A stretch of 42,294 nucleotides of DNA from an uncultured Clostridia bacterium (lineage in GTDB: Bacteria > Bacillota > Clostridia > Christensenellales > CAG-314), in contig CANQNJ010000012.1 in assembly GCA_947625185.1 (NCBI GenBank), positions 1-42,294 of the forward strand. Reading direction: 5' to 3'. The stretch's first letter is position 1; every line of letters begins with the position of its first letter. Shown here in pieces: positions 31,110 through 36,488 of this stretch. Position numbers and translations under genes: made by a program. The notes under the pieces were generated by a model. The model had not been told where the DNA came from and did no database searches. It saw only the letters and a program-made list of their open reading frames with translations.

Positions 31110-31859
31110 ATGAAAAAAATCGGGAATTTCTTCCGAGAATACCGTATTCTGCTCAAATCGGTACCCTCAACTGTAATTTGCTTTTTTGTTTTATCCGTAT
31201 TTACGATGAATCTGCTTGCGAATAAAAGCATCGATCTCGGCGTCGATTGGTTGGCGCTGGATTGCGGCATAATAGTATCCTGGGCGGCATTTCTGTGCAT
31301 GGACATCCTCACCAAGAGCTTCGGTCCAAAAGCCGCCACTATGGTATCGCTATTTGCAATAGCAGCCAATCTGTTGTGCTGCCTTACGATGTTTGTGGCG
31401 AGCATTATCGGCGGAACCTGGGGCGCATACTTCGACTACGGCGAACTGCCCGTGATCAACAACGCGCTTGACGGTACGTTCGGCGGAACCTGGTATGTGG
31501 TATTGGGAAGCACCGTCGCGTTCGTCGCTTCGGCGGTAATCAACAACTTCTCCAATTGGGGCATAGGCAGAACGTTCAAAAAAAATCCCGACGGGGCAGC
31601 CGCCTACATCTGCCGCGCATATGTCTCCACCGCCGTCGCGCAGTTTGCCGACAATCTGATATTTGCGCTGATAGTAAGTCACTTCTTCTTCGGGTGGACG
31701 ATAGTACAGTGCCTCACCTGCGCAGCCACGGGTATGATCGCCGAACTGCTCTGCGAAGCCGTATTCAGCCCGTTGGGGTATGCCGTGTGCAAACGTTGGC
31801 AAAAAGAAAACGTAGGCAGACAATACTTCGACTATGTGAAGGGAGAACGCGCGTTATGA
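31110..31859 (+). CDS. Queuosine-precursor transporter family protein (YhhQ/VUT, COG1738)
   Basis: This 249-residue protein has about six transmembrane helices. The MDILTKSFGPKAATMVSL segment corresponds to the conserved D-x-x-x-K/E-x-x-G-x-K region of the YhhQ/VUT family, which imports queuosine precursors (preQ0/preQ1) in bacteria that salvage them. The C-terminal helices contain ISH-like and PLGYAVCKRW segments near the end. AAGGAG lies seven bases before the ATG. Its stop codon overlaps the start of the SDR gene (ATGA). The family is firm, the exact substrate is inferred. Confidence 0.82.
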   Translation: MKKIGNFFREYRILLKSVPSTVICFFVLSVFTMNLLANKSIDLGVDWLALDCGIIVSWAAFLCMDILTKSFGPKAATMVSLFAIAANLLCCLTMFVASIIGGTWGAYFDYGELPVINNALDGTFGGTWYVVLGSTVAFVASAVINNFSNWGIGRTFKKNPDGAAAYICRAYVSTAVAQFADNLIFALIVSHFFFGWTIVQCLTCAATGMIAELLCEAVFSPLGYAVCKRWQKENVGRQYFDYVKGERAL

Positions 31860-32503
31860 AAACCATCGTTACGGGTTCGAGCAGCGGTATCGGCAAAGCC
31901 GTTGCGCTCAAATTTCTCAATGAGGGGTACGACGTCGTCGGGATAGATATATTGCCCGCGACTATATCTCATCCGCGATATACGCATTTCGTTGCGGACG
32001 TCGTTGCGGACGAACTGCCCGACATAGAACACGCCGACATACTCGTCAATAACGCCGGCGTGCAAAACAGCGGCAGGGATATAGACGTCAATCTGAAAGG
32101 CGCAATACGCACAACGGAACGATACGGCATACGTCCCGACGTCAAGAGCATAGTGTTCGTCGCTTCCGCAAGTGCAAGTACGGGAGCGGAGTTTCCGGAA
32201 TACGCGGCAAGCAAAGGCGGAGTAGTATCCTATATGAAGAACGTCGCCCTGCGTATAGCGCCTTACGGCGCCACCTGCAACAGCATTTCGCCCGGCGGAG
32301 TCACCACCGCTCTCAACAAACGCGTGATGGATGATCCCGAGCTGTGGGCGCAGATAATGGACGAAACGCCCCTCCGCAAATGGGCAAGCGCGGAAGAAAT
32401 AGCCGAATGGGTGTACTTTGTATCCGTCGTCAACAAGTCGATGACGGCGCAGGATATCCTCATCGATAACGGCGAAGCCGCCCGCGCCAAGTTCGTGTGG
32501 TAG
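31856..32503 (+). CDS. Short-chain dehydrogenase/reductase (SDR)
   Basis: This 215-residue NAD(P)-dependent oxidoreductase has the classical SDR set: TGSSSGIG at 6-13, NNAG near 65-68, the catalytic Ser in FVASASAS, YAASK with Tyr116 and Lys120, and SPGGV after it. It is shorter than most FabG-like enzymes (about 245 residues), having lost parts of the region between NNAG and the Ser. The start overlaps the transporter stop by four bases (ATGA), so expression is coupled. The substrate is unknown; coupling suggests a step in processing the imported compound. Confidence 0.88.
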   Translation: MKTIVTGSSSGIGKAVALKFLNEGYDVVGIDILPATISHPRYTHFVADVVADELPDIEHADILVNNAGVQNSGRDIDVNLKGAIRTTERYGIRPDVKSIVFVASASASTGAEFPEYAASKGGVVSYMKNVALRIAPYGATCNSISPGGVTTALNKRVMDDPELWAQIMDETPLRKWASAEEIAEWVYFVSVVNKSMTAQDILIDNGEAARAKFVW

Positions 32504-32510
32504 AGGGCGA

Positions 32511-32623
32511 TTGCCGCAAAGCGGCAAGTGAAGTTGCCTACGGCAGTGAAGGTCGCGCAGAGCGCGAGTGAAGTAATTCGACGTTTGTCAAATGTGAAGT
32601 TTTGCGCGAGGCGCAAAGTTAAG
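32511..32623. repeat. Array of five small three-base-loop hairpins joined by GTGAAG linkers
   Basis: Starting eight bases after the SDR stop: TTGCCGC-aaa-GCGGCAA, TGCC-tac-GGCA, TCGCGC-aga-GCGCGA, ACGTTT-gtc-AAATGT and TTTGCGC-gag-GCGCAAA. Each stem has a three-base loop. Each is followed by GTGAAG (GTTAAG in the last), at 32528, 32546, 32568, 32594 and 32618. Stem sequences differ, while loop size and linker are kept, so structure seems to be the conserved feature. A sixth such hairpin (CACCGA-cta-TCGGTG) lies at 32660-32674. Confidence 0.75.
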
Positions 32624-32659
32624 GTCGGAAAGTTTAGTAAAATTCACTCTGTCAATCCT

Positions 32660-32720
32660 CACCGACTATCGGTGTCCCTCCCTTTATGCCACTCAAAGGG
32701 GCATAAAGGGAGGCTTTTTT
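32660..32720 (+). terminator. Strong terminator after the SDR gene
   Basis: A 14-bp perfect stem CCTCCCTTTATGCC (32677-32690) with GGCATAAAGGGAGG (32700-32713) is followed by CTTTTTT. It is preceded by the small hairpin at 32660-32674. Confidence 0.85.
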
Positions 32721-32736
32721 ATGATACAAGATTTAT

Positions 32737-33331
32737 GGTTCTGTAAGAAATGTTGAGGTGCGGAAGTATATAAAATACAAAAGTCGACTTTCATATCAAA
32801 GCGGAATTTGAGCATGCGGGGATGCGCGTGTCGCGCATAGCAGCGAGTAAAGCGAAAATTCCGCCTGCAATCTCGGGCGTGAACCGAGATTGCAGCCCTT
32901 GCGGGGGATGGCGGGCGTGGCGCGTAAAACCAATCACCACTGTGTGGTGTTGGTAGCTGCCACGAGAGGGCGCACAAGTATATAAATGTACCCGTGCGCC
33001 CGTATACCTTAAAATATGCGACTCCCCGCCGAAAGTACAAATAATGCAAGCCGAGGTGTCCTCGGCTACAAGGGTACCCGCACAAGTTGAGGAACGGAAC
33101 TTGTGCGGGAGAGGAACAACCGAGCGACGTTGGCACCGCTTGTGCTTGCACAAGCGGTAACGTCAAGCGAGAGTTGTGACGAGTCTGCGCTTGCGCCCCG
33201 TCAGGGGTCGGTTGCGCAGTCAACCGTACAGACTTGCGTTTGGTCGGAAGGCTCTGATGGCATAATGTTGGGGCAAAGCAGGCTTACTTTTCTACATAAT
33301 TTGTCTTGACCCCAACATTTGCCATAGCGCC
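32737..33331 (+). mobile_element. Hairpin-rich non-autonomous element, copy 3, with 8-bp target duplication
   Basis: This is the most complete copy (595 bp). The perfect direct repeat AGATTTAT lies at 32729-32736 and 33332-33339. The left end GGTTCTGTAAGAAATGTTG and the inverted right end GGCGCTATGGCAAATGTTG form terminal inverted repeats, and the last 82 bases make the end hairpin. Compared with copy 1 it has two extra modules, a 102-bp one (about 32914-33015) and a 115-bp one (about 33067-33181), each built of hairpins. GGYTCT-like ends and 8-bp duplications are typical of ISL3-family elements, so an ISL3 transposase elsewhere may mobilise it. Confidence 0.88.
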
Positions 33332-33335
33332 AGAT

Positions 33336-33369
33336 TTATCCCCTCCCTTTTGCACTCGGGAGGGGATAA
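33336..33369. repeat. Perfect 12-bp hairpin beside the copy 3 insertion site
   Basis: TTATCCCCTCCC and GGGAGGGGATAA flank a 10-base loop. No T-run follows on either strand. The element's target site overlaps the edge of this stem. Confidence 0.6.
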
Positions 33370-33390
33370 TATCACACCAAATAATTTTTT

Positions 33391-33473
33391 AATGCGCCGC
33401 GTTCTCAAATTTCGCTTCAATATGGAAGTCGGCTGCTATATTTTATCTACTTCTGCACCACGACATTTGTTAT
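33391..33473 (-). mobile_element. Relic of the left end of the element (reverse orientation)
   Basis: The reverse complement of this stretch follows the first 85 bases of the element family with about three-quarters identity, including GGTGCAGAAGTAGATAAAAT and AAGCGAAATTTGAG. It ends 15 bases before the stop codon of the GH13 gene. Confidence 0.6.
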
Positions 33474-35942: not shown

Positions 35943-36376
35943 GGCTCTATTCAAATGTTTGGGTAAAAAATTATGAAAAATTAAGACTGCTTTACCTCAA
36001 CATTTTGCCATTTGAGCTACCGCCCAAACGCAAGTCTGTACGGTTGACTGCACAACCGACCCCTGACGGGGCGCAAGCGCAGACTTGGGCGGACTACTAA
36101 GGAAGCCGAGGACACCTCGGCTTCCTTTTTTTTGACTTTCGCCGGGGTCTCCCCTATTTTAAGGTACACGGGCGCACGGGTACATTTATATACTTGTGCG
36201 CCCTCTCGTGGCAGCTACCAACACCACACTGTGGTGATTGGTTTTACGCGCAACGCCCACGCATCCCCGGGGTGGGCTGCAAGCGCCGCGCAGGTCGCCA
36301 CTTGCAACAGAATTTTCGCTTTTTTCGCTGCTATGCGCGACACGCGCATCTCCGCGCGCGTAAATTCCGCTTTAAC
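35943..36376 (-). mobile_element. Hairpin-rich non-autonomous element, copy 4 (reverse, left end missing)
   Basis: Read on the minus strand, this copy contains the conserved hairpin chain, the 102-bp module (about 36157-36254) and the short form of the later module. It ends in the right-end hairpin at 35943-36016, whose terminal sequence is GGCTCTATTCAAATGTTTGG. The left end is replaced from 36377 on by a second copy of the degV terminator and end hairpin. Confidence 0.75.
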
Positions 36377-36378
36377 CT

Positions 36379-36488
36379 GACGGCTTGATTGTGCGTTCAA
36401 GCCGTTTATTTTAGGCTCTATTCAAATATTTGGGTAAAAAAGATGAAAAAATAAAACTGTTTTACCTCAACATTTTGCCATTTAAGTC
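36379..36488 (+). repeat. Duplicate of the degV terminator plus element end hairpin
   Basis: Bases 36379-36488 repeat 35908-36016 (about 110 bp, roughly 85-90 percent identical). Each unit has the ACGGCTTGA hairpin, TTATTTTA, then GGCTCTATTCAAAT and the inverted arm ending in TTGCCATTT. The two units flank copy 4 of the element as direct repeats. Confidence 0.75.

Follow-up and report, generated by a model that had tools for sequence, protein, structure and literature searches.

The hairpin array at positions 32511-32617 of the window, i.e. the whole 42,294-nucleotide stretch of clostridial DNA analysed here, probably represents a decayed copy, with one arm only, of a selfish non-autonomous element that resembles the Gut-1 RNA of Rfam (RF01706). 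A small element would have inserted behind the stop codon of an SDR gene and decayed thereafter. Complete members of the family in related bacteria consist of two inverted arms, each a chain of freely varying self-complementary hairpins strung on one constant linker. Below, G-numbers denote genomes and L-numbers fetched loci, G000 being the window's own genome.

The window array and its copies in the same genome

The SDR gene (31856-32503, forward strand) ends just before the array and is a neighbour that lies outside the element. The array, also on the forward strand, is made up of five stems and, in between, four exact GTGAAG linkers (32528-32533, 32546-32551, 32568-32573 and 32594-32599). 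Hairpin 1 (32511-32527, TTGCCGC-AAA-GCGGCAA) is the outermost module and has a 7 bp stem with loop AAA; the linker expected to precede it is degenerate, and the same module also occurs in L041, L042 and L033, there with an intact linker. The hairpin 2 module (32534-32545, TTGCCTACGGCA; stem 32535-32545, TGCC-TAC-GGCA, 4 bp, loop TAC) has an identical copy in each of L033, L042 and L035, while the stem of the hairpin 3 module (32552-32567, GTCGCGCAGAGCGCGA; stem 32553-32567, TCGCGC-AGA-GCGCGA, 6 bp, loop AGA) recurs in L041, L043 and L049. The hairpin 4 module (32574-32593, TAATTCGACGTTTGTCAAAT) is damaged; its intact counterpart, TATTTCGACGTTCGTCGAAAT, is found in sister copies elsewhere in the genome. 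Hairpin 5 (32600-32617, TTTTGCGC-GAG-GCGCAAA), the innermost module, has a 7 bp stem (32601-32617) with loop GAG and is followed by the variant linker GTTAAG (32618-32623), which closes the arm in sister copies. The arm mixes modules of two sister types (GCCGC-GCC-CGCGC-TTTCGAC-TTTGCGC), and the damage to its fourth stem and first linker makes it look old. Only this single arm is present in the window, where complete relatives have terminal inverted repeats.

The variant linker is followed by a tail (32624-32713, forward strand) of the genomic family's 'type B', diverged in sequence; about eight other copies of this tail are present in the genome. The tail contains a hairpin (32660-32674, CACCGA-CTA-TCGGTG) and a strong 17-nt inverted repeat (32677-32713) that is followed by a T-run and is terminator-like. 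The fold of 32500-32720 has a z-score of -4.26, none of 200 shuffles being equally stable. Together with the genome-wide pattern and the spacer test described below, this confirms the original prediction of a structured array in which stem sequences vary freely around a constant GTGAAG linker while pairing is kept, and the further three-base-loop hairpin predicted ahead of the terminator is present at 32660-32674. The five stems were also said always to have three loop bases, which is true of hairpins 1, 2, 3 and 5 and fails at hairpin 4 because its loop has four. Downstream of the array, a separate repeat of ~700 bp (32757-33461) has inverted ends GGTGCGGAAGTATATAAAATA.../...TATTTTATCTACTTCTGCACC, and a second related copy of it lies at about 36100-36400, with the overlapping translation SPILRYTGARVHLYTCAPSRGSYQHHTVVIGFTR.

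A second array elsewhere in the genome had been proposed as a check, and about 30 arrays are present in the 1.73 Mb of G000 (19 stretches fetched). The pattern GTGAAG-N(8-26)-GTGAAG occurs there 78 times, against 5 for the reversed pattern, and GTGAAGT on both sides of a spacer 74 times, against 0. The arrays follow the grammar GTGAAG-hp-GTGAAG-hp-GTGAAG-hp-GTGAAG-hp-GTT(A/G)(A/C)G, hp being a hairpin, and then end in one of several tails. Their stems are drawn from a limited vocabulary whose combinations reassort: four-module arms come in 17 distinct combinations, and a four-gamete test on hairpin modules returned all four combinations at 5 of 6 position pairs. Some of the arrays face each other (265-820 bp). 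At five loci of this genome (L031, L036, L041, L044 and L047) a palindromic segment, CGGGTATTCCACGCAAAA...TTTTGCGTTGGAATACCC, lies next to two-hairpin ends.

The array had been read as a possible 3' tail of the transporter-SDR message, and this reading was rejected. An SDR homologue of some kind is present in 25/25 genomes of the genus, and none of 19 fetched relatives (protein 61-78% identical) has a GTGAAG array within 520 nt after the SDR gene; with the SDR gene thus present in relatives and the array missing there, the array is no conserved tail of the SDR mRNA. A tail segment of the repeat family, without an array, follows the SDR gene in only two of these 19 relatives, G016 and G025. By crude ORF calls, arrays run in the same direction as their 5' neighbour gene in 13 cases and in the opposite direction in 11, so that their orientation to the gene is not fixed. 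The palindromic segment noted above recurs behind the SDR gene in G016 and G025.

Two-armed elements and the Gut-1 RNA

Across the order, arrays form compact inverted-repeat elements of about 160-215 bp, which are common in other families. In 90 convergent arm pairs the core is mostly 11-147 nt long, and in none is there a gene between the arms. The linker varies between elements (GTGAAG, GTGAAAT, GTGATAT, GTTATAT or others) and is the same in both arms: 85 pairs are GTGAAG/GTGAAG, 4 GTGAAAT/GTGAAAT and 13 fall within GT[GT]ATAT, against 3 mixed pairs, a few overlapping loci being counted twice. The inverted arms and their common linker favour a joint role of both ends. From 34 aligned complete elements the canonical form is ACTAAG-hp-GTGAAG-hp-GTGAAG-hp-GTGAAG-core-CTTAACTTCAC-hp-CTTCAC-hp-CTTCAC-hp-CTTCAC, in which the 5' half of the first stem is complementary to two segments, the 3' half of the same stem and a distal copy directly in front of CTTAA. 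The match to the distal copy is specific to the element (6.72 of 8 for the element's own copy vs 5.97 when permuted, 0/5000 permutations reaching the own value), so an alternative pairing is possible.

No target-site duplication was found in 78 elements, the longest exact flank match being 3 nt, the same as in shuffles. The left end (A|ACTAAG) adjoins a hairpin in 20/23 distinct flanks (0.6 in shuffles) and the right flanks do so in 5/23; the hairpin at the left end may be either the target or a part of the element. One phage contig (L145) carries two complete elements, one directly after the portal gene and the other at the end of a tail gene, whose stop codon is supplied by the inserted element; no exact empty site was found for either insertion. 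In phages related to L145 the intergenic spot behind the portal gene is occupied by other short-unit array elements, with units AATTGAC, AATGGAC and AATTAAG and a similar core (GTGTCGCC..GGCGAC); the loci concerned are L145 (3845-4061 and 7848-8064) and, after the portal gene, L231-L233, L240 and L246. In several families (L178, L179, L180, L182 and L186) a conserved stretch, ATGGGTGATGTTCTTAGCGGAGAATTTG...GAGCATCGCATTTGACT...ATGGGCTAAGCCCAAACC, lies upstream of a terminator-element unit and has no Rfam match above threshold.

The distribution of the arrays is uneven. Linker pairs number 52-74 in three of the genus's 25 genomes (G000, G016 and G020) and are absent from most of the rest; reversed-pattern controls are nearly empty. 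Triple arrays are present in 24/396 genomes of the order, and the 1/398 sampled genomes from the rest of the phylum that matches the triple pattern does not have a hairpin array. Of the 118 stretches that a scan of GTDB representatives yielded, almost all come from Clostridia of the ruminant and deer gut; the few others include Butyrivibrio and one Prevotellaceae bin. Matches in a viral pattern scan were mostly coding repeats, with clear arrays only at L068 and L145, and GenBank phages and plasmids held no DNA similar to the array elements. One genome, G049, has 58 Gut-1 matches, and the arrays at three of its loci (L379, L381 and L382) are long, having linkers GTGATAT/GTTATAT and as many as a dozen hairpins.

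In its original description Gut-1 is a noncoding RNA listed for the human gut alone and is rated certainly an RNA (Weinberg et al. 2010, PMC2864571); a literature search for the accession RF01706 found it named only in that report, and in Rfam it carries the label 'sRNA', its function being unknown. Positions 32503-32579 of the window align to the whole Gut-1 covariance model (1-77), with three hairpins and GUGAA(A/G) linkers, at 20.3 bits (E 0.11). This is far below the model's cut-off of 50 bits, and the window array is therefore named Gut-1-like and is no Gut-1 member. The 13 Gut-1 matches in its own genome also stay below the cut-off (best 44.4 bits), and two genomes of the same genus, G020 (53.5 bits) and G006, exceed it. 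The original prediction that no known family matches was thus mistaken in part: the anatomy is that of RF01706, with scores over threshold in relatives, and the window itself remains sub-threshold. Over 32 genomes, Gut-1 matches at E <= 0.001 occur in 19/20 array-bearing genomes, G025 being the exception, and in 0/12 array-free genomes. The weak Rfam matches of the window to mir-183, MIR160 and U4 were set aside as eukaryotic families that fit the terminator or arise by chance.

The arrays share with Gut-1 RNA the three hairpins joined by GUGAAAU linkers, and, unlike the published Gut-1, they belong to a dispersed element that has a second arm and whose hosts are ruminant and other gut Clostridia. 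In the compact elements the Gut-1 model covers a single arm (51.0 bits at L186, 38-49 bits at others). Gut-1 RNA is probably the left arm of such elements.

It is unlikely that Gut-1-type arrays are functional structured RNAs, either small RNAs or 3'-UTR elements, that have been copied for host regulation. Of 474 distinct GTGAAG..GTGAAG spacers from all fetched loci, 361 form a hairpin with at most a single non-Watson-Crick pair (269 are perfect; loops of 3 nt in 229 and 4 nt in 132), compared with 0/39 for spacers flanked by eight anagram words and 1.9% for shuffled ones. The hairpins are strong and often lie beside terminators and gene ends, their loops on the GTGAAG strand are mostly T-N-N, and hairpins of that strand are slightly more stable as RNA, by about 0.3-0.4 kcal/mol each, all of which agrees with an RNA role, as does the published rating of Gut-1. 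However, when spacer hairpins are chosen strand-symmetrically, the GTGAAG strand has 36 single A-C mismatches against 17 of G-U (p = 0.013), the reverse of the bias expected from RNA selection on that strand. Furthermore, the complete element has arms on both strands, the Gut-1 model matches both strands of one element, and the arrays are patchy among congeners, not kept at the SDR locus and present in phage.

Quite unlikely, too, is a mobile or recombining terminator cassette that is spread by homologous recombination of adjoining repeats without a dedicated enzyme. In the window's own genome many arrays do have the same terminator tail and lie within further repeats, and module reassortment could itself be homologous exchange, but similarity between the repeats has a sharp left border at the first GTGAAG, beyond which the flanks are unrelated, and the compact element is found with unrelated flanks in many species and a phage. 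That the arrays are REPIN- or BIME-like elements moved by a RAYT (Y1 HUH) transposase, GTGAAG being the REP foot, is highly improbable. Inverted hairpin ends, the lack of a target-site duplication, the intergenic position and a left end next to hairpins would all suit such elements, yet most array-rich genomes lack the Y1_Tnp domain (PF01797), among them G056, which is 100% complete, so that this explanation is largely refuted; G000 has only a broken PF01797 remnant. Reverse transcriptase (RVT_1), IS110, DDE_Tnp_1 and TnpB were rejected as movers, being absent or uncorrelated with the arrays, the DDE test taking in DDE_Tnp_1 among the DDE families. A non-autonomous selfish element remains the preferred reading.

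A four-helix-bundle protein beside the arrays

At six loci (L258, L285, L329, L337, L338 and L339) a gene for a protein of 117-121 aa lies about 8-25 nt behind the right end of the element. By family assignment the protein is PF05635, 23S_rRNA_IVP (TIGR02436, four helix bundle protein), referred to here as S23. Near-identical copies of the element or of its left arm flank the PF05635 gene on both sides, in direct orientation, at L316, L329 and L338. Over the 118 blindly fetched loci, 8/9 PF05635-like genes have an arm no more than 400 nt away (12% for random positions), and three are flanked by arms on both sides. Among 80 genomes, PF05635 is present in 14/23 array-bearing and 13/57 array-free ones, counts that ignore phylogeny. 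Four array-bearing genomes (G000, G016, G020 and G025) have no PF05635 gene; for G000, the window's own genome, the link to S23 therefore gives no explanation, except if the factor has been lost or works from another place. The positional tie is well supported in relatives only, and the protein is a candidate for the functional role. A search for GTGAAG-binding proteins had been suggested, and the four-helix-bundle S23 protein is now a possible one.

Short-unit arrays are also found around S23 genes more widely. At the PF05635 genes of the order, the unit of the flanking arrays changes by locus and agrees between the flanks where both are seen. The units form AATGATG hairpin arrays at L402 and are GTGATGC at L407 and GTTATAT at L399/L406, with plain tandem units beside the gene at L400 and L409. 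Over 22 PF05635 loci of the order, the commonest 7-mer of the flanks has a mean of 6.2 copies vs 3.0-3.5 in the controls, which were of three kinds (p values between 2e-8 and 1e-14). At eleven plasmid and phage S23 loci short-unit arrays surround the gene, clearly so in most. Those on plasmids of other phyla include TTGCGAC in Nostoc (about 30 copies), TTAGTGA in Bernardetia, CACTGGT in Euhalothece and GATTTAC in Planktothrix, with arrays also in Chlorohelix and Treponema; they are weaker in Gloeocapsa, and the Monoglobus locus has no array by 7-mer count, although longer repeats can be made out there on inspection. In gut phages, hairpin arrays lie directly 5' of the S23 gene. The S23 loci examined lie between protein-coding genes and the window array behind the SDR gene, none being inside 23S rRNA. 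At L436 (1430-1897) a four-helix-bundle gene with TAATTAGGAATGAG-like flanking units separates hsdS from hsdR within a type I restriction operon, and at L433 and L439 such a gene lies between a DUF1156 gene and a Swt1-HEPN gene.

In the mechanism proposed here, the elements would move as DNA, their ends being recognised via linker and hairpins, and the recognition or mobility factor may be the S23/IVP protein or a related one provided in trans. With one arm, a damaged fourth stem and first linker and a genome without PF05635, the window copy has probably lost its mobility.

Relation to known repeats and implications

Several known systems resemble the arrays in part. REPINs and BIMEs are likewise short, dispersed and intergenic with inverted hairpins (PMC3116915), whereas the arrays described here have no Y1 transposase partner, and each of their arms strings several hairpins of freely varying stem sequence on one linker. 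They also differ from a MITE, as they lack a target-site duplication and no tested transposase family shares their ends or tracks them. The BOX elements of Streptococcus pneumoniae (PMC3049150) are also modular, dispersed and stem-loop forming with a variable number of modules; compared by description only, the present arrays are set apart by many different hairpins around one linker and by inverted arms. The 23S rRNA intervening sequences with S23 protein (IVS) are likewise selfish, patchy and located at hairpins (PMC4990558), and the same protein family is found beside or between the arrays of relatives. IVS sit in 23S rRNA genes, whereas the loci here are intergenic, many of them having hairpin-separated linkers and no gene. 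In the Coxiella IVS, heptamer repeats (GACAGAT) precede the S23 gene, and the IVS has been termed selfish (PMC4990558). The TAACTGA heptamers of Beggiatoaceae, whose binding protein was left unnamed (PMC4679880), are intergenic 7-nt units too. Like them, other plain heptamer arrays have units without an intervening hairpin, unlike the GTGAAG arrays. The STRR repeats of cyanobacteria are such heptamer arrays, and S23 genes of cyanobacteria and of other bacteria are flanked by arrays of this kind. No published tie between heptamer arrays and S23 was found in the literature searched.

These comparisons lead to a broader proposal, to which an even chance is given: Gut-1 RNA, GTGAAG hairpin arrays and the plain heptamer arrays that flank S23 genes may be the ends of one widespread superfamily of selfish elements that would move without any known class of transposase. 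Its sole encoded protein would be the four-helix-bundle (S23/IVP, Avd-like) protein, its ends would be short-unit arrays, plain or hairpin-separated, with free sequence as long as both arms match, and the intervening sequences of rRNA would be those members whose insertion hit a hairpin of 23S rRNA.

Gut-1 has been in Rfam since 2010 without a function. If these readings are right, Gut-1 is an arm of a dispersed element with named hosts and no stand-alone RNA, and the puzzling short-unit arrays of cyanobacteria, Beggiatoaceae and the Coxiella IVS would share a partner protein that can be purified and tested. The older idea that mobility is the purpose of the S23 reading frame in rRNA intervening sequences would thereby be reopened.
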